A DNA stretch of 64,000 nucleotides from Mycobacterium paraseoulense (GTDB lineage Bacteria > Actinomycetota > Actinomycetes > Mycobacteriales > Mycobacteriaceae): assembly GCF_010731655.1 (NCBI RefSeq), contig NZ_AP022619.1, positions 2,542,001-2,606,000 of the forward strand, written 5' to 3'. The notes below the pieces were generated by a model. That model had not been told where the DNA came from and made no database searches. It saw nothing but the letters and a program-made list of their open reading frames with translations. This document shows, one piece after another, positions 7,541 to 43,794 of the stretch; the stretch's first letter is position 1, and each line of letters opens with the position of its first letter. The position numbers were made by a program, and so were the translations under genes.

Positions 7541-9028
7541 GTGCACGACGACTTCGAACGCTGTTACCGCGCCGTCCAGTCCAAGGACGCCCGGTTCGAC
7601 GGCTGGTTCGTCACGGCGGTGCTGACCACCCGCATCTATTGCCGGCCCAGCTGTCCGGTGCGGCCGCCGTTCGCTCGCAACGTGCGGTTCTATCCGACCG
7701 CGGCCGCCGCTCAGCGGGCGGGATTCCGGGCCTGCAAGCGTTGCCGTCCCGACGCGTCCCCCGGTTCGCCGGAGTGGAATATGCGCGGTGACGTCGTTGC
7801 GCGGACGATGCGGTTGATCGCCGACGGCACGGTGGATCGCGAAGGCGTCGGCGGGCTGGCGGCCCACCTCGGTTACACCACCCGCCAGTTGGAGCGGCTG
7901 CTGCAAGCCGAGGTCGGGGCCGGCCCGCTCGCGCTGGCACGGGCCCAGCGGGCACAGACCGCCCGGCTGCTCATCGAGACCACGGACCTGCCGTTCGGGG
8001 ACGTCGCGTTCGCGTCGGGGTTTTCCAGCATCCGCCAGTTCAACGACACCGTGCGCTTGGTCTTCGAGAACTCGCCGACGGAGCTGCGGCGGCGCGCGGC
8101 CGGCCGGCCCGGGTCGAACTCCGCTTCGCCGGGGGCGGTGTGCCTGCGATTGCCGGTCCGGACCCCGTTCGCGTATGAGGGCGTCTTCGGCCATCTGGCC
8201 GCCGGCACCGTGCCCGGCTGCGAGGAGATCCGCGACGGTGCGTATCGGCGGAGCCTGCGTCTTCCATTCGGCAGCGCCGTCGTCACCCTCACGCCGGCCG
8301 TCGATCACGTCCGCAGCGTGCTGGTCCTCGACGACTTCCGCGATCTGACGACGGCGATCGCCCGCTGCCGGCGGCTGCTGGATCTCGACGCCGATCCCGA
8401 AGCGGTGGACGACGCGCTGTCCGGCGACCCACACCTGCGTCCGGTTGTGGGAAAGGCTCCCGGACAACGCATTCCGCGCACCGTCGACGAGACCGAGCTG
8501 GCCGTTCGCGCGGTCCTGGGCCAACAAGTATCGACCAAGGCGGCGCGCACCCACGCCGGCAGGCTGGCCGCGGCCTACGGCCAGCCGGTCACCGACCCCG
8601 ACGGCGGGTTGACGCATACTTTCCCGTCGGTGGAGCAGCTCGCCGAGATCGACCCCATCCACTTGGCGGTCCCGAAGGCCCGGCGACGCACCCTGAGCGC
8701 GTTGGTGGCCGGGCTCGCCGAGGGCAGCATCGTCCTGGACAGCGGGAGCGACTGGGAAGCCGCCCGCAGACAATTGCTGGACGTGCCCGGGATCGGCCCG
8801 TGGACCGCAGAGGTGATTGCGATGCGCGGGCTCGGCGACCCGGATGCCTTCCCCGCCACCGACCTCGGCCTTCGCCTGGCTGCGAAACGGCTGGGCTTAC
8901 CCACTGACGAACGAGCGCTCGTCGCCCGTGGCGCCCGCTGGCGCCCCTGGCGCTCCTATGCCACCCAATACCTATGGACCACCCTCGAGCATCCGGTAAA
9001 CCAATGGCCACCACAGGAGGTCGCATGA
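7541..9028 (+). CDS. alkA: Ada/AlkA fusion: methylphosphotriester sensor, AraC regulator and 3-methyladenine glycosylase
   Basis: A 495-residue three-part protein starting at GTG 7541. The N-terminal Ada zinc domain has Cys in IYCRPSC and CKRCRP; it accepts a methyl group from DNA phosphotriesters, which in Ada switches on transcription. A central AraC-type helix-turn-helix (about 90-185) follows. The C-terminal half is an AlkA glycosylase with the helix-hairpin-helix DVPGIGPWTAEV and the catalytic Asp in PATDLGL. It therefore combines sensing, regulation and base excision of alkylated purines. Its stop overlaps the ogt start in an ATGA, so the two repair genes are translationally coupled. 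The orthologue in H37Rv is Rv1317c. Confidence 0.95.
   Translation: MHDDFERCYRAVQSKDARFDGWFVTAVLTTRIYCRPSCPVRPPFARNVRFYPTAAAAQRAGFRACKRCRPDASPGSPEWNMRGDVVARTMRLIADGTVDREGVGGLAAHLGYTTRQLERLLQAEVGAGPLALARAQRAQTARLLIETTDLPFGDVAFASGFSSIRQFNDTVRLVFENSPTELRRRAAGRPGSNSASPGAVCLRLPVRTPFAYEGVFGHLAAGTVPGCEEIRDGAYRRSLRLPFGSAVVTLTPAVDHVRSVLVLDDFRDLTTAIARCRRLLDLDADPEAVDDALSGDPHLRPVVGKAPGQRIPRTVDETELAVRAVLGQQVSTKAARTHAGRLAAAYGQPVTDPDGGLTHTFPSVEQLAEIDPIHLAVPKARRRTLSALVAGLAEGSIVLDSGSDWEAARRQLLDVPGIGPWTAEVIAMRGLGDPDAFPATDLGLRLAAKRLGLPTDERALVARGARWRPWRSYATQYLWTTLEHPVNQWPPQEVA
9015..9028 (+). promoter_or_regulatory. Ribosome site and ATGA coupling of alkA to ogt
   Basis: AGGAGG at 9015-9020 precedes ATG 9025 by four bases, and the alkA stop TGA (9026-9028) overlaps that ATG. 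This fixes the ogt start and indicates translational coupling. Confidence 0.85.
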
Positions 9029-9528
9029 TCGAGTACCGCACCATCGACAGCCCGATCGGGCCGCTGACCCTCGCCGGCCAGGATTCGGTTCTGACCATGC
9101 TTCGGATGGTCGATCAAACCTACGAACCGAGCCGCACCGGCTGGGCACCGAATCCCGTGGCATTCCAGGACGCGACGGAGCAACTCGACGCCTACTTCGC
9201 CGGTGAACTGACCGAGTTTGATTTCGAATTCGAATTGCGTGGGTCCGAATTTCAGCGGCGGGTATGGAAGGCGCTGCAGACAATTCCCTACGGCGAAACC
9301 AGATCGTACGGAACAATCGCCGCCCAGATCGGCGCTCCCGGTTCCGCACGGGCGGTGGGATTGGCGAACGGCCACAACCCCATCGCGATTGTCGTCCCCT
9401 GCCACCGCGTCATCGGCGCCAACGGCAGCCTCACCGGCTACGGAGGCGGCCTGGACCGAAAGCAAACCCTGCTGGCGCTGGAGAGGAAACACGCATCGAC
9501 GAATGCCGCTTTGACATTATTCGACTAG
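9025..9528 (+). CDS. ogt: Methylated-DNA-protein cysteine methyltransferase
   Basis: A 167-residue suicide repair protein that transfers the alkyl group from O6-alkylguanine to its own Cys. The acceptor Cys is in PCHRVIGANGS, followed by GYGGGLDRKQTLL as in the family; the helix-turn-helix and Arg finger region (RAVGLANGHNPI) is intact. I chose the ATG at 9025 because a perfect AGGAGG lies at 9015-9020 and because the reading frame upstream overlaps alkA. The ATGA overlap with alkA means that both are made together. The shared perfect hairpin at 9551-9580 probably ends this transcript and the opposing rRNA transcript. Confidence 0.96.
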   Translation: MIEYRTIDSPIGPLTLAGQDSVLTMLRMVDQTYEPSRTGWAPNPVAFQDATEQLDAYFAGELTEFDFEFELRGSEFQRRVWKALQTIPYGETRSYGTIAAQIGAPGSARAVGLANGHNPIAIVVPCHRVIGANGSLTGYGGGLDRKQTLLALERKHASTNAALTLFD

Positions 9529-9550
9529 AAATCGCTCGCATCGTGAATGC

Positions 9551-9580
9551 AAAAACACCCCCGTTGCCGGGGGTGTTTTT
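9551..9580. terminator. Bidirectional intrinsic terminator between ogt and rrn
   Basis: A near-perfect inverted repeat with 12-bp arms (AAAAACACCCCC and its complement) around a six-base loop. It ends in five T on either strand, so it can serve both the plus-strand alkA-ogt transcript and the minus-strand rRNA transcript. Confidence 0.88.
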
Positions 9581-9585
9581 GTGTA

Positions 9586-9700
9586 TGTTCGGCGGTGTCC
9601 TACTTTTCCACCCGGATGGGCAGTATCATCGGCGCTGACAGGCTTAGCTTCCGGGTTCGGAATGGGACCGGGCGTTTCCCTGTCGCTGTGGCCGCCGTAA
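9586..9700 (-). rRNA. rrf: 5S ribosomal RNA
   Basis: The minus strand begins TTACGGCGGCCACAGCG and runs through the conserved CCGAACCCGGAAGCTAAGCC region to CACCGCCGAACA. The length is about 115 bases. Ends were placed by pairing of the terminal stem, so either may be off by one or two bases. It is the last gene of the rrn operon and is followed within a few bases by the hairpin terminator. Confidence 0.95.
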
Positions 9701-9769
9701 CTCTATTTAAATTTGGTTTCGGTGGGGGGGTGTGATGTCCAAGTTTCCTACGACGAATTGTCGCGGAAA

Positions 9770-14706
<4,937 letters not shown>

Positions 14707-14910
14707 TCTCCTCGCAAAACGAGGTGAATTTCAAATCAGAGAAAATCTGACCTAACAAAAAGACACCAAATAACTGGCATCAAAGATTGCCATACCCACA
14801 CACGGGGAGTGCGAGGTATGGCCAAAAAAACAACAACAAAATAAAAAGACCAAACACACTATTGAGTTCTCAAACAACACTTGTTTCGCCCGTTTTGGGG
14901 CAACCCTGCC

Positions 14911-14940
14911 AGCTTAATACAAGTCCGGCAGTGGAGTCAA
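14911..14940 (-). promoter_or_regulatory. rrn promoter, 16S-proximal
   Basis: Minus strand TTGACT (14935-14940), an 18-base spacer and TAAGCT (14911-14916). It corresponds in place and sequence to the conserved mycobacterial proximal rrnA promoter. The sequence downstream, CTGGCAGGGTTGCCCC, is shared in large part with the upstream promoter. Confidence 0.8.
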
Positions 14941-14986
14941 CTCCCAGTTTTGGTCTTCGAGAGACCGTTTCGGGAGCAGCCGTGCC

Positions 14987-15016
14987 AGGCTAGTACCAAT
15001 CCAGCGAGGGAGTCAA
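14987..15016 (-). promoter_or_regulatory. rrn promoter, murA-proximal
   Basis: Minus strand TTGACT (15011-15016), an 18-base spacer and TAGCCT (14987-14992). It lies about 60 bases after the murA stop and exactly 76 bases upstream of the second promoter. Similarity of both the boxes and the spacer suggests a duplicated promoter. Confidence 0.75.
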
Positions 15017-15074
15017 GCGCCCGGGGTGTCGACCGCCTGGTGTGGCGACCGGCCCTGCGGGACACTGACTTTGG

Positions 15075-38692: not shown

Positions 38693-38765
38693 GCCCCCGT
38701 AGCTCAGGGGATAGAGCGTCTGCCTCCGGAGCAGAAGGCCGCAGGTTCGAATCCTGCCGGGGGCA
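38693..38765 (+). tRNA. tRNA-Arg (anticodon CCG)
   Basis: A 73-base cloverleaf: acceptor arms GCCCCCG (38693-38699) and CGGGGGC (38758-38764) pair fully, the anticodon stem TCTGC/GCAGA encloses the loop CTCCGGA, and the T arm GGTTCGAATCC is canonical. The anticodon CCG reads CGG. The CCA end is not encoded. The last 14 bases plus one base downstream are repeated 3,180 bases on (41932-41946), which suggests that an element has inserted at this tRNA. A TAGTCT box at 38652-38657 is a candidate -10. Confidence 0.97.
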
Positions 38766-38766
38766 C
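38752..38766 (+). repeat. Putative att-type repeat, left copy at tRNA-Arg 3' end
   Basis: TCCTGCCGGGGGCAC, exact with 41932-41946. Similarity continues on the right (TTCTTGCAGGT here against TTCTCGCAGGT there, one base offset) and a GCAG is shared on the left at equal distance. Confidence 0.6.
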
Positions 38767-38957: not shown

Positions 38958-40724
38958 TCAGATGGTGCGTTTCAGCCCGACGTGAGCGGCGTGGTACCCG
39001 AGCCGGCGATAGAACGCCCGAGCCCTTTCGCGAGCCTCGTCTGTGGTCACCTGCGCCAGCTGTGCCCCGTGTGCTCGGCCGTAGTTGTGTGCCCACTCGA
39101 CTAGTGCAGTACCAAGACCCTGTGCGCGTTCGGCTTTGGCGACCCGTAATCCCTCGATCTGCAGCCGGGTGGCGCCGCCGCGGGAAAGGCCGGGAATGAT
39201 CGTCAATTGCACAGTCGCGACGACTATATCGGAACCGTTCAGGACGACTCCGAGATAGTTGGATCGGTTGCGAACGACGATGTCGTAGGCCGCCTCGTAG
39301 CGTTCGAGTTCGGCGTCTTCGCGTTCCTGACCGAATTCGTCGTCGGAGAGCAGCTGGGCGATCACCCCCACGTGTTCGCGCGTCGCGCGCTGCACACGAT
39401 ATGTGCGGCCCGCTACCCGCAGCAGTCCTCGAACCGAGGACTGCGCCAGTGCCTGTAGGCGCGCCACCAACAGGTCCAGCCACGCCCCCACGTTGGTTCG
39501 TGCCTCCGCGGTATCCGGGTAGCGGCATCGCAGATGTAGCCCGGACTCGTCCTGGATGAACCAGAGCATGACGCCGTCGGTGTCAACGCTCGCGCTCACA
39601 TACTGGGCGTCGAGTCCGACCGAGTCGATGCGCACCGGAAGTCTGCTTTGGTCCAGCCAGGAAATCGCGAACATGCCAGGCGCGATGGGCATTCCACCCC
39701 ACGGAGCCAGTACGTCGGCCAGTGGCCAGGAACCAAGCTGCACGGCTTCTTTGACGGCGGTGGCCGCGGCGTGCGGCTCGGCAACCGCCGACTCCAGGAC
39801 CGAATTGGTGATGAACCAGCCCACCGAGTCGTGCCATTTGTCTTCAAATCGGCTGTGCACGGGGAAGACCGCGCGCAGCGGCGCCCCGGCCAACTCGCGG
39901 GTCACCGCGGTCATGGCGACCACGGCGAGTGCCAGCGTCGAGACACCGTCGTCGCGTGCCTGCGCGGCGAACGCGGCGCCGTCATCGACATCGAACACGT
40001 CACGCACTTCAACGCGTTCCGGATGCGGCCCGGACTCACCCAACGGCAGCGGAAACCGTGGCATCACCCCACCGCTGTCGCTGATGATTTGTGCCCATCG
40101 CGCGCGCACGCGTTCCGGTGCCGCGGGAAGGTCCAGCAGTGCTTGCGTGTGCACGACAAATGCCGGCGGCGGTTGCGGCGACGACATGCGTCCGATCCGG
40201 GCGTCGGCGAGCATCGACAACAGGTCCCGGGCAATCACCAGCATTGACCACATGTCCACGTGGGCGTGGTCGGCGGCGATCACCACCGTCAATCCGGCGG
40301 CAGTCTCCAGCACGCACAATCGATGTGAGGGCCGCTGATAGGGCGAGCACGTCGCATTGAGAACCACTCGCAGTGCGTCGTTGACCGCCTGGCCCGGAGC
40401 GATCTCATGCTCGACCCACTGGCCTGGGTGAATATCGATCTCATTCAGTTGCGGATCGCCGGCCGCCCCGGGTGTGAATGCCGTTCGCAGGGTGCCGTGG
40501 CGGGCGATCACGGCCAGCCACGCATCGGCCAACGATTGGCGGCTGACCCCCGCCGGCAACCGGATGGACAGAGCCATCCAGGAGCCGGGTCGTGCGCCCG
40601 CACCGACGTGTATGCGCTGGTCGAAAGACACCGGGAGCTGGCGGCCGAGGTCAGACACCGACACGTCGTAGCCCCAGAGTCGTCCAAAGGGTAGCCGCAG
40701 GTGCGCGACGTTGGTCAGCCGCAT
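38958..40724 (-). CDS. Condensation-domain acyltransferase fused to GNAT acetyltransferase
   Basis: A 588-residue two-domain protein. Residues 1 to about 430 form a condensation or PapA-like acyltransferase domain. The canonical HHxxxDG appears as DHAHVDM at 152-158, so the catalytic His153 and structural Asp157 are kept while the first His and the Gly are changed. A second family motif, VGWFITNS at 301-308, is present. Residues from about 440 to 588 form a GNAT domain with acetyl-CoA loop RAQGLGTAL (533-541) and AFYRRLGY. No adenylation or carrier domain is nearby. It is divergent from an alpha/beta hydrolase gene and lies in the segment bounded by tRNA-Arg repeats. Function is unknown; transfer of an acyl group to an amine, alcohol or peptide is likely. 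Confidence 0.8.
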   Translation of the reverse strand: MRLTNVAHLRLPFGRLWGYDVSVSDLGRQLPVSFDQRIHVGAGARPGSWMALSIRLPAGVSRQSLADAWLAVIARHGTLRTAFTPGAAGDPQLNEIDIHPGQWVEHEIAPGQAVNDALRVVLNATCSPYQRPSHRLCVLETAAGLTVVIAADHAHVDMWSMLVIARDLLSMLADARIGRMSSPQPPPAFVVHTQALLDLPAAPERVRARWAQIISDSGGVMPRFPLPLGESGPHPERVEVRDVFDVDDGAAFAAQARDDGVSTLALAVVAMTAVTRELAGAPLRAVFPVHSRFEDKWHDSVGWFITNSVLESAVAEPHAAATAVKEAVQLGSWPLADVLAPWGGMPIAPGMFAISWLDQSRLPVRIDSVGLDAQYVSASVDTDGVMLWFIQDESGLHLRCRYPDTAEARTNVGAWLDLLVARLQALAQSSVRGLLRVAGRTYRVQRATREHVGVIAQLLSDDEFGQEREDAELERYEAAYDIVVRNRSNYLGVVLNGSDIVVATVQLTIIPGLSRGGATRLQIEGLRVAKAERAQGLGTALVEWAHNYGRAHGAQLAQVTTDEARERARAFYRRLGYHAAHVGLKRTI

Positions 40725-40814
40725 GGCGGTACCTTAACGCCCCGGTTAGCCTGAATGCTCGGTCTGCGCGGTCGGCTCCGGGGCGAGCCGTCCGGTCGTG
40801 AGAAGAGTTGCGTG

Positions 40815-41594
40815 ATGTCCACTTTCGTGGTTCCCGGAGCGGAGCTTGCGGTCGAACTGAGCGATGAAGGTGGTCATCCGGTAGTTCAACTGCATGGACT
40901 TACCTCCAGCCGCGCGCGTGACCGGGTGCTCAATCTCGACCTCGGCAGGGGCCTCAGCGGGACCCGACTGCTGCGGTACGACGCACGCGGCCATGGCAAG
41001 TCGACGGGGCGCAAGGTCCCGGAGGATTACCGATGGGAAAGCCTTGCCGAGGATCTTCTGCAGCTGCTCGACGAATGGTTTCCCGGCGAACGGGTGCACG
41101 GAGTCGGCCCGTCCATGGGTACCGGCACGCTGCTGCACGCGGCTGCCCGCGAGCCGGACCGTTTCGCCGGGCTCACGCTCATGGTGCCGGCCACCGCGTG
41201 GGAAACCCGGCCCGCGCAGGCCGAGATCTACGAGGTTGCGGCCGAAATTATCGAGACCGAGGGAGTCGGGGCATTCATCGCGTCGGCGCGTGGGGTGACT
41301 CCGCCGCCGGCCACGGTCGGCGCGCCCGAAACAGTTCCCGATGTGGCCGACGCGCTGCTGCCGTCACTGTTTCGGGGTGCGGCCCTCAGCGACCTGCCCG
41401 CCCGCGAAGCGGTCGCACGAATCGATGTGCCGACGACGATTCTGGCCTGGGTCAACGACCCGGCGCATCCGATGTCGACAGCGGAATCGCTTGCCGCACT
41501 GATGCCGCGGTCAACGCTCACCGTGGCGCACACCCCGGCCGATGTCGAGACCTGGCCCCAGATCCTGAGCCAAGACGTAGCCCGCAGAGGCTGA
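40815..41594 (+). CDS. Alpha/beta hydrolase
   Basis: A 259-residue hydrolase. The oxyanion region is QLHGLTSSR, the nucleophile elbow GPSMGTGT, the acid residue probably in WVNDPAHP and the His in AHTPAD near the C-terminus. The ATG at 40815 is chosen; earlier residues in the open frame are not family-like. It is divergent from the condensation-GNAT gene with 90 bp between starts, so one control region may serve both. Substrate unknown; an esterase or thioesterase paired with the fusion enzyme is a reasonable guess. Confidence 0.8.
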   Translation: MSTFVVPGAELAVELSDEGGHPVVQLHGLTSSRARDRVLNLDLGRGLSGTRLLRYDARGHGKSTGRKVPEDYRWESLAEDLLQLLDEWFPGERVHGVGPSMGTGTLLHAAAREPDRFAGLTLMVPATAWETRPAQAEIYEVAAEIIETEGVGAFIASARGVTPPPATVGAPETVPDVADALLPSLFRGAALSDLPAREAVARIDVPTTILAWVNDPAHPMSTAESLAALMPRSTLTVAHTPADVETWPQILSQDVARRG

Positions 41595-42006: not shown

Positions 42007-42780
42007 ATGGGCGAACGTGTGACGTTCCAAGGTTCCACGGGCGCGACTCTGGCAGGCGTCATCGAGATGCCGGACGGGGCGGTGCGGGGCTGGGGCGTGT
42101 TCGCGCACGGCTTCACCCTCGGTAAGGACTCGCCCGCCGCCGCGAGGATCTGCAAGCAACTGGCCGCCGACGGCATCGGCATGCTGCGCTTCGATGCGTT
42201 GGGCCTGGGCGGGTCCGAGGGCGACTGGGGCGACGGGTCGTTCACCGTCAAAGTCGACGACATCGCCAAGGCGTGCGAATTCATGACCAACCGCGGAACC
42301 CCGGCCGACATCCTGATCGGGCACTCCTGGGGCGGCGCGGCGGTGCTCGCCGCGGCTCGGCAATCGCCGGGAGTGCGGTCGGTGGTGACGGTCGCGGCGC
42401 CGGTCGACCCGAGCCACGTCGAAAAGCATTACGACGCAGTCGTCGATCGCTGCCTAACCGAGGGCAGCGCCGAATGGATGGTCGGCGGGCGCACGCTGAC
42501 ACTCAAGCGGGCATTCGTCGAGGATGTGCGTCGGGCCCACCTACGCGACAAGATCAAGGGTTTGCGCCTGCCGCTGCTCATCCTGCACTCGCCCACCGAC
42601 AACACGGTCGGCATCGAGAACGCGAGCGAGATCTTCCGCTTGGCCCGTCATCCCCGCAGCTTCGTCTCGCTGGAGGGGTCGGATCACTTTCTCGCCGCCC
42701 GCGGGCAGGCGCACCGGGCGGGGCGCATCATCGGCGCCTGGGCCGACGCGTACCTGGGCGACAACAGCCAGGTCAAGTAG
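42007..42780 (+). CDS. Alpha/beta hydrolase (OsmC-associated type)
   Basis: A 257-residue hydrolase with oxyanion motif FAHGFTLGKDS, nucleophile GHSWGGAAV, Asp in HSPTDNTV and His in GSDHFLA, a complete triad. The sequence resembles the hydrolase half of OsmC-hydrolase fusions (RICKQLAADGIGMLRFDALGLGGSEG), though no OsmC gene is adjacent. It starts at ATG 42007 just outside the right att-type repeat. Substrate unknown. It converges on the phosphatase-like gene, 21 bp away. Confidence 0.85.
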   Translation: MGERVTFQGSTGATLAGVIEMPDGAVRGWGVFAHGFTLGKDSPAAARICKQLAADGIGMLRFDALGLGGSEGDWGDGSFTVKVDDIAKACEFMTNRGTPADILIGHSWGGAAVLAAARQSPGVRSVVTVAAPVDPSHVEKHYDAVVDRCLTEGSAEWMVGGRTLTLKRAFVEDVRRAHLRDKIKGLRLPLLILHSPTDNTVGIENASEIFRLARHPRSFVSLEGSDHFLAARGQAHRAGRIIGAWADAYLGDNSQVK

Positions 42781-42801: not shown

Positions 42802-43794
42802 TCACCCGCCGACGCCGGGGGCACGTTCGCCAAGCTCCCCGCGATCGCTGATGTCCAGGACTTCGACCTCGTACCTGTCCGACAACTCCTGGCCGAACGC
42901 CATGGCCTCCGGGCCTCCGTCGGTGTCGAGGAGGCCCAGCTCGACGATGCCACCCATCCGCGCCCGGTACTCGGCACGCGGGCTGATCTTCATCGTCGGC
43001 GGTGGCCGGAACGGCAGCACGTCATGCAGCACGACCTTGCCGACAACCAGATACGACCACGGCGCATCCGTGACCTTCAGTTGCGGCGCCACTCGCGAGG
43101 CCAACTGCGACACCTTCGGGAACCCGCGCGCCCGCGCGATCACGTCCGCGACCTCGATATCGGCGTACCATCCGCACTCGCACTCCGGCGCCGGCGGCAT
43201 GTGTTCCGGGTTGTAGCGGCATTCGGCGGCGGACCATTTCGTCGGCCAGGTCATTTCCCCGTAATACGGGGATCGCAGCACATCCCCGGCCATTCCCGTC
43301 CAAAAGCGAAAACCGACGGCGGTTTCCAGGCGGCCGAAACCGGGTGCGATGAGCCGGTCGTCCAGCCAGTCGTGCAGCCCGGGCATCGCGGCCTCGATCG
43401 CTGCCAAGGCGTGCTCGAAGTCAGCGCCAAAGACCGGGTTCCGGACGTCGACGCACCTGAGCCGGGCGTCGTCGACGCCACCCGCTCGCAACACCTCCAC
43501 ATGTTCGCGGCCCAACGCCACCACCAGATCGGCGGCGAGGTGCTCAGGACCGACCAGCGCAGCCCGATGGCCCGCCGGGGCGGGATAACCATTCGCGGAC
43601 AGCACCGAGCACGCTTGCTCATCGGCCGTATCGCCCACCCACGCGAGGGTGCCCGCACTGGAGACCCGCACCACGTCTTTTAGGCCACGCTCCCGCAGCT
43701 GCTCGGCGAACAGCGCCGCGGCCATCACCGATCGAGCACGGTTGAAACTGCATACGAACGCGACGTGCAGCCGAGGGTTACTCACCGTCCGCAC
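42802..43794 (-). CDS. Low-molecular-weight phosphatase-like protein with C-terminal Cys-containing domain
   Basis: A 330-residue fusion. Residues 8 to about 150 resemble low-molecular-weight tyrosine phosphatases, with the P-loop CSFNRARS (Cys15-X5-Arg21-Ser22). The position of the general acid, normally DP followed by an aromatic, reads RNPVFG with Asn119, so phosphatase activity may be weakened or changed. The C-terminal 150 residues contain PAPECECGWYAD, a motif shared by several actinobacterial proteins of unknown function, and a beta-rich part (WSYLVVGKVVLHD). I do not recognise this combination. Arsenate reductase is a weaker alternative. Confidence 0.75.
   Translation of the reverse strand: MRTVSNPRLHVAFVCSFNRARSVMAAALFAEQLRERGLKDVVRVSSAGTLAWVGDTADEQACSVLSANGYPAPAGHRAALVGPEHLAADLVVALGREHVEVLRAGGVDDARLRCVDVRNPVFGADFEHALAAIEAAMPGLHDWLDDRLIAPGFGRLETAVGFRFWTGMAGDVLRSPYYGEMTWPTKWSAAECRYNPEHMPPAPECECGWYADIEVADVIARARGFPKVSQLASRVAPQLKVTDAPWSYLVVGKVVLHDVLPFRPPPTMKISPRAEYRARMGGIVELGLLDTDGGPEAMAFGQELSDRYEVEVLDISDRGELGERAPGVGG

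Follow-up and report, generated by a model that had tools for sequence, protein, structure and literature searches.

The closest described systems are the PapA2/PapA1-type trehalose-lipid acyltransferases, the NRPS condensation domains and free-standing C enzymes (PDB 4znm, which we take to be SgcC5), the alpha/beta hydrolases resembling 3-oxoadipate enol-lactonase and aclacinomycin methylesterase, and the standalone GNATs of actinobacteria, which are encoded by separate genes in varied contexts. In the window, that is, the whole stretch of 64,000 nucleotides of the Mycobacterium paraseoulense contig NZ_AP022619.1 that was analysed here, an acyltransferase of the condensation/PapA fold is joined to a GNAT domain in one protein and is accompanied by a divergent alpha/beta hydrolase gene. 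PapA2 departs from the HHxxxDG motif at the first His and at the Gly, as does the fusion protein; compared with the PapA2/PapA1 type, the fusion adds a C-terminal GNAT domain and an obligatory divergent hydrolase, and lipid-biosynthesis genes were not seen recurring beside it. The NRPS condensation domains and free-standing C enzymes are linked to it by a Pfam Condensation match above the cut-off and by weak PDB matches, but the fusion carries DHxHxDM and not HHxxxDG, the window lacks carrier and adenylation domains, and NRPS-type ORFs score lower in the family profile. The partner hydrolase has the GxSxG nucleophile elbow and the Asp in common with the enol-lactonase and methylesterase-like enzymes, whereas the conserved His after the last strand is missing and a DxxHP pattern is found instead. 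The fused GNAT, unlike the standalone ones, forms a clade of its own.

The fusion gene (38958..40724, minus strand) is an ORF with an ATG start encoding 588 residues, and is supported by its Pfam matches and its homologues. Residues 1-432 (39429..40724, minus strand) make up the condensation/PapA-fold acyltransferase domain, as indicated by the alignment with PapA2 (PDB 6aef) and by a Pfam Condensation match over residues 50-326 (38.4 bits against a cut-off of 30.6), and residues 444-586 (38967..39395, minus strand) make up the GNAT domain, with a Pfam Acetyltransf_1 match over residues 466-577 (51.9 bits against a cut-off of 20.7). The latter also matches PDB 1z4e with 99 bits over 143 residues, an entry deposited as a 'transcriptional regulator' and presumably derived from B. 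halodurans. Arg533 and Gly536 are invariant and Gly538 is at least 90% conserved in the 24 rows aligned; we take these residues to be the RxxGxG CoA motif of GNAT. No NCBIfam model matched the fusion protein above its own cut-off. With both Pfam domains above their cut-offs, the joining of two acyl-transfer domains in one chain, as proposed in the initial annotation, is confirmed, and the domain search puts the first of them inside the condensation superfamily.

The active-site motif D152-H153-x-H155-V-D157-M-W-S (40245..40271, minus strand) reads D152-H153-A-H155-V-D157-M158-W159 in the protein of the window, and was recognized from its conservation and from the PapA2 alignment. All locus statistics on the fusion family refer to the best 80 of 217 confirmed loci encoding fusion relatives in the genome collection. 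Among these, Asp152, His153, His155, Asp157, Trp159 and Ser160 are identical in 80 of 80 loci, so the motif is not a product of chance; Met158 is present in 79. The mean column identity across 24 chosen members of the family is 78%. The window is indeed free of carrier and adenylation domains, since none of the 50 PP-binding and none of the 130 AMP-binding Pfam matches of the genome (counted on one 6.09-Mb contig) falls inside it, while the single one of the 50 Condensation matches that does is the fusion gene itself.

The family profile gave 202, 197 and 155 bits with the nearest PapA-like relatives (L167, L166 and L168, respectively), 58-130 bits with six further PapA-like proteins of the L166-L168 clusters, 118 bits with a Sinorhizobium plasmid protein, and 33-47 bits with eight NRPS-type ORFs of this genome. 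Of six condensation-family proteins that stand alone in the same genome, five scored 99, 66, 55, 42 and 22 bits, while L227 was not matched, possibly because of a wrong frame. With scores so uneven, the lower PapA-like values run into the range of the NRPS C domains. When the PDB was searched with the family, PapA2 came out ahead of the best NRPS C domain by a small margin (35.7 versus 31.4 bits). Residues 52-447 of PapA2 can be aligned, by sequence only, with residues 37-417 of the fusion protein across both subdomains (E 3.2e-8), and His153 falls on His166 of PapA2, which is the catalytic centre according to the accessible part of the structure paper (PMC6996325). The catalytic His is therefore kept, as the initial annotation had stated. 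At the aligned place PapA2 reads A-H-L-C-V-D-P (AHxxxDP), and three of the five stand-alone proteins scored have DHxxxDG and one has DHxxxDA. Because of these, a departure from HHxxxDG must be considered usual in this branch; the earlier reading of DHAHVDM as a changed HHxxxDG is right, but not its peculiarity, and we have rejected it as a mark of unusual chemistry. Profile scores, the motif and the lack of carrier domains together disfavour an NRPS-type condensation enzyme, and a first domain that is PapA-like rather than NRPS-like is supported by the trees and the profiles, although not proven.

The PapA-like proteins of L166-L168 form the nearest outgroup, with 28-31% identity to the family, and the L167 protein matches PapA2 with an E of 1.2e-36. 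Two of the three carry DHAHxDA, and the third DHALGDA. Unlike the fusion, they are clustered with other PapA-like genes and show no GNAT match and no partner-hydrolase match in the stretches read. A glycosyltransferase gene is present near the PapA-like relatives in L166 and L168; none is found among the called genes of L167, where there is a single unrelated left neighbour without a Pfam match. The clusters of several PapA-like acyltransferase genes at L166-L168 are possible glycolipid loci. A PapA-like condensation protein with 25% identity was also found on a Sinorhizobium terangae plasmid (L170), with genes for a sulfotransferase, a GMC oxidoreductase, a class III aminotransferase, a HAD protein and a glycosyltransferase as neighbours, and similar matches occur on other Sinorhizobium and on Cupriavidus taiwanensis plasmids.

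The partner alpha/beta hydrolase (40815..41594, plus strand, 259 residues) was assigned by Pfam, and its start was placed at the conserved MSTFVVPG, while the listed ORF begins at 40755. It lies directly upstream of the acyltransferase gene and divergent from it, with a gap of 19-147 bp in 80 of 80 loci, 79 of them found by tblastn and one, L039, placed separately (a second match is present in that locus, and the divergent hydrolase is at 84 bp). Gene calling alone recovers it in 47 loci, the remainder being antisense or missed calls according to tblastn. In the class sample of 394 genomes, the fusion query matches 37 genomes at E ≤ 1e-30, of which 17 contain the acyltransferase family, 3 PapA-like proteins only and 17 a standalone GNAT only. 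The hydrolase matches 30 genomes at E ≤ 1e-40, with at least 54% identity in 17 and with 41-51% in 13. The 17 genomes carrying the acyltransferase and those carrying the hydrolase at ≥54% are the same, and in every one of them the coordinates show a divergent pair of genes no more than about 150 bp apart. The phylogenetic profile thus bears out the link to the adjacent hydrolase that had been suspected from the window. Both proteins are at least 67% identical to those of the window in the best 80 of 217 loci, across orders, and the pairwise identities of the hydrolase and of the acyltransferase part are correlated over the 80 loci (r = 0.91). The hydrolase is an obligatory partner of the acyltransferase in all loci checked.

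The GNAT domain is not so constant, being absent from 7 of the 17 class-sample members. One of these is G498, in which the gene is frame-split, and the six others are 428-452 residues long and keep the same start, preceded at 6-8 nt by a TAnnnT box. In a tree of the acyltransferase part (45 rows, with a distant outgroup and with the long branches L121 and L122 meeting), these six make up two clades nested among the fusions, with supports of 100/99 and 100/100, and the starred branches force two changes. In a GNAT tree, one branch separates 28 fused from 12 standalone domains (96/86; 95% of 200 bootstrap trees), the fused GNAT being 44-52% identical to the 12 standalone genes, whose contexts gave no pathway clue. 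The simplest account, supported by the trees but not proven, is that the GNAT was fused once and then lost at least twice, with the hydrolase retained. Since it is missing in 7 of 17 members, the initial suggestion that two activities modify one molecule twice does not hold as the core of the system. In Psychromicrobium, the GNAT end of the fusion is altered. In G498 (L123/L153) the acyltransferase gene is split across two frames next to an intact partner hydrolase, as in a decaying copy or by a sequencing error.

The reading that we favour, if only tentatively, is a self-contained two-gene acyl-modification module combining PapA-like CoA-dependent transfer, accessory acetyl transfer by the GNAT and product processing by the hydrolase-fold protein; that the module moves horizontally is the best reading. 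By comparison with its relatives, the first domain would be a CoA-dependent acyltransferase of the PapA type, with His153 as the general base, and would move an acyl group onto a hydroxyl or an amine of a small polar acceptor. This acceptor would most likely be a sugar or a glycolipid, which is a guess, because just two of the three nearest relatives have an adjoining glycosyltransferase gene. The C-terminal GNAT would then be an accessory acetyltransferase of the same pathway, added once and dropped in some lineages, and the divergent hydrolase may trim, recycle or pass on the acyl product. No pathway genes travel with the pair and its flanks vary, which is odd for a lipid-biosynthesis enzyme. 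A wider claim, which we regard as possible but doubtful, is that the PapA-like acyltransferase and the hydrolase-fold protein, which lacks the standard catalytic His, are an undescribed, horizontally moving and obligatory pair of the Actinomycetota with overlapping back-to-back promoters. This minimal system would make or turn over a new acylated metabolite or lipid of the cell, and the fused GNAT would contribute a further, dispensable acylation. The strict pairing turns the generic annotations 'GNAT' and 'alpha/beta hydrolase' into one testable unit, carried by soil actinobacteria, by some of the mycobacteria and by at least one plasmid. Since there are two genes only, which vary in presence within one genus (23 of 248 genomes) and are also found in Arthrobacter and Microbacterium, the product could be traced by comparing the lipids and metabolites of two-gene deletions.

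The family is widespread. Among 8000 candidates scored, at least 971 proteins match at E ≤ 1e-3 (not all of them are necessarily family members), and the best 120 matches listed have 68-98% identity over 92-100% of the query; the closest among the matches listed are from Mycobacterium parascrofulaceum (98%) and M. paraffinicum (97%). The genera represented in the best 80 of 217 loci include Mycobacterium, Mycolicibacterium, Arthrobacter, Psychromicrobium, Microbacterium, Antrihabitans and Smaragdicoccus, as well as Gordonia, Tsukamurella, Nocardia, Rhodococcus, Aeromicrobium and Nocardioides. With the genome of the window counted in each case, the fusion is present in 3 of 296 genomes of the phylum sample (E ≤ 1e-60) and in 23 of 248 of the genus sample (E ≤ 1e-100), and the acyltransferase part, with GNAT-less members included, in 17 of 394 of the class sample. 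The pair thus recurs patchily across many soil actinobacteria. Database names for the relatives are generic ('GNAT family N-acetyltransferase', 'condensation domain protein', 'peptide synthetase'), and a description of the architecture was found neither in a search of the open literature, which is weak evidence of absence as subscription journals lie mostly outside it, nor in the accessible part of PMC2922099. The initial view of an undescribed architecture has so far survived this search, but that of an unusual one has not, the family being widespread and its names no more than generic.

In the tree of the acyltransferase part, Antrihabitans (Nocardiaceae) is nested among Arthrobacter and Microbacterium with a support of 95/92, which suggests a transfer between orders. 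Among 39 matching plasmid records, only one exceeds 60% identity; it is from Tsukamurella tyrosinosolvens and carries the same divergent hydrolase. The locus has no match to a PADLOC defence family at E 0.01 or to a phage genome at E 1e-5, and a role as defence or phage cargo was rejected on these grounds. Two copies of the pair lie about 47 kb apart on one contig of Mycobacterium ahvazicum (L028 and L029); they share a called neighbour pattern that includes argS and tRNA-Arg, and could reflect a regional duplication or an assembly artefact.

In the window, the edge of the variable region is marked by a tRNA-Arg(CCG) gene (38693..38766, plus strand), 0.2 kb from the fusion gene, and argS was identified among the neighbours; further neighbours, named from their translations, are presumably lysA, thrA, thrC and thrB. 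Of the 23 mostly mycobacterial loci L013-L035 (a check that left out L061 and L092), 15 have tRNA-Arg(CCG) at a distance of 29 bp to 4.5 kb, one more adjoins a tRNA-Arg(CCT), and no tRNA was found in seven, distances being counted from the fusion gene. When stretches reaching 3.3-10 kb beyond argS were inspected in eight genomes of the same genus, seven had the tRNA without the pair and the eighth carries the pair; the seven genomes were also unmatched in the genus search (248 genomes, E ≤ 1e-100). The 'candidate island' of the initial annotation is therefore borne out as a variable, tRNA-flanking site, and we treat this position as an integration hotspot. Outside Mycobacterium, a tRNA was detected in just 3 of 49 loci scanned, all three being tRNA-Arg(CCT) in Nocardia, for which reason a functional link with argS or tRNA biology was rejected. 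The genes flanking the pair differ between genera. A second alpha/beta hydrolase beside the pair (42007-42780 of the window) is present in 10 of the 23 loci L013-L035, in a neighbourhood cluster with Mycobacterium members only, and a low-molecular-weight phosphatase-like protein (42802-43794) in 3 of the 23.

The patchy presence in the phylum, class and genus samples, the varying neighbourhoods, the tree groupings across orders and the Tsukamurella plasmid copy with its divergent hydrolase would also be expected of a mobile detoxification or resistance module, in which the transferase domains acylate or acetylate a foreign compound, such as an antibiotic or a plant or fungal metabolite, and the hydrolase cleaves its esters. 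The GNAT domain does have a weak similarity to the AAC(3)-XI and AAC(3)-I enzymes, and the hydrolase to macrolide esterase models, but the scores fall far short of what the curated models require (34 bits for AAC_3_XI, with a cut-off of 300, and 36 for macro_16_ester, with one of 420). Besides, the conservation (at least 67% over 80 loci) and the strict pairing fit one defined endogenous substrate better, and no regulator or transporter gene recurs beside the pair across genera in the neighbourhood clusters inspected. We thus consider a detoxification module unlikely, and retain the acyl-modification module as the preferred reading.

A putative -10 box TAAGGT (40731..40736, minus strand) is found 6 nt before the fusion ATG, and a leaderless mRNA is predicted from it and from the conservation of TAnnnT: 80 of 81 loci have this motif at a distance of 6-8 nt upstream of the ATG, as compared with 199 of 1408 other called genes (a rough control, as called starts are often too early). 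This layout matches that of leaderless mycobacterial mRNAs in the accessible part of PMC3898074, where TANNNT is centred 7-12 bp before 73% of the primary start sites and 26% of the genes with a primary start site are leaderless. On the opposite strand, a candidate -10 TACCTT toward the hydrolase (40730..40735, plus strand) overlaps the first, and a second candidate, TAGCCT, is located at 40747..40752 (plus strand), both being recognized as reverse-strand TAnnnT. A reverse TAnnnT within 10 nt that overlaps the forward box is seen in 78 of 81 loci, and 52 of 81 have a second one, 15-30 nt away from the start of the fusion, so overlapping divergent promoters are possible for the two genes; such promoters have been described in E. 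coli and on Salmonella plasmids, in the accessible parts of PMC12825309 and PMC10268837. A symmetric TAnnnTA is shared in 73 of 81 loci and is a candidate only for a common -10 of both genes, several neighbouring bases being about equally conserved. None of these TAnnnT counts is made up of independent observations, because the sequences are related.

In addition to the pairing, we have also checked the catalytic residues of the hydrolase. The nucleophile Ser100 of the GxSxG elbow (GPSMG) and the acidic residue Asp215 are invariant in 81 of 81 rows, as are His27 and His218. A conserved catalytic His is lacking behind the last strand: position 239, where the sequence would lead one to expect it, holds H in 41 rows, R in 25, S in 8, and another residue or a gap in 7 of the 81. 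The catalytic set is thus probably non-standard, comprising Ser100, Asp215 and perhaps His218; His218 might stand in for the usual residue; alternatively, the protein may act other than as a free hydrolase, and its catalysis may be impaired. The poorly conserved His at 239 in a protein with three invariant residues (Ser100, Asp215 and His218), the strict pairing and the candidate back-to-back promoters would agree with a two-protein synthase of a small acylated signal or metabolite, in which the hydrolase-fold protein, held in a stable complex with the PapA-like enzyme, would transfer the acyl group or release the product. Such a complex is hypothetical, and eight distant hydrolase relatives (40-50% identity) likewise have the D-x-x-H-P pattern and a variable C-terminal position, while the stretches read around them show no adjacent acyltransferase match, meaning that this feature did not arise for the partnership. 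A synthase of this kind therefore seems quite improbable to us. The contexts of the distant hydrolases offered no pathway clue. How a hydrolase family that lacks the usual catalytic His works is a question of enzymology in its own right, and one that can be checked.

The idea that the two proteins are not enzymes, or are decayed leftovers that happened to persist close to a tRNA integration site, could be argued from the frame-split acyltransferase of G498 and the altered GNAT end in Psychromicrobium, but is extremely improbable given an active site whose residues are the same throughout the 80 loci, a mean column identity of 78% among the 24 chosen members and co-retention in 17 of 17 genomes. 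Elsewhere in the window, the GC content between 9000 and 15000 drops to 0.55-0.59 with a mostly strong negative GC skew, and no minus-strand ORF of at least 120 residues is present from 9493 to 15074; this segment (9000-15000) is probably a minus-strand rRNA operon.
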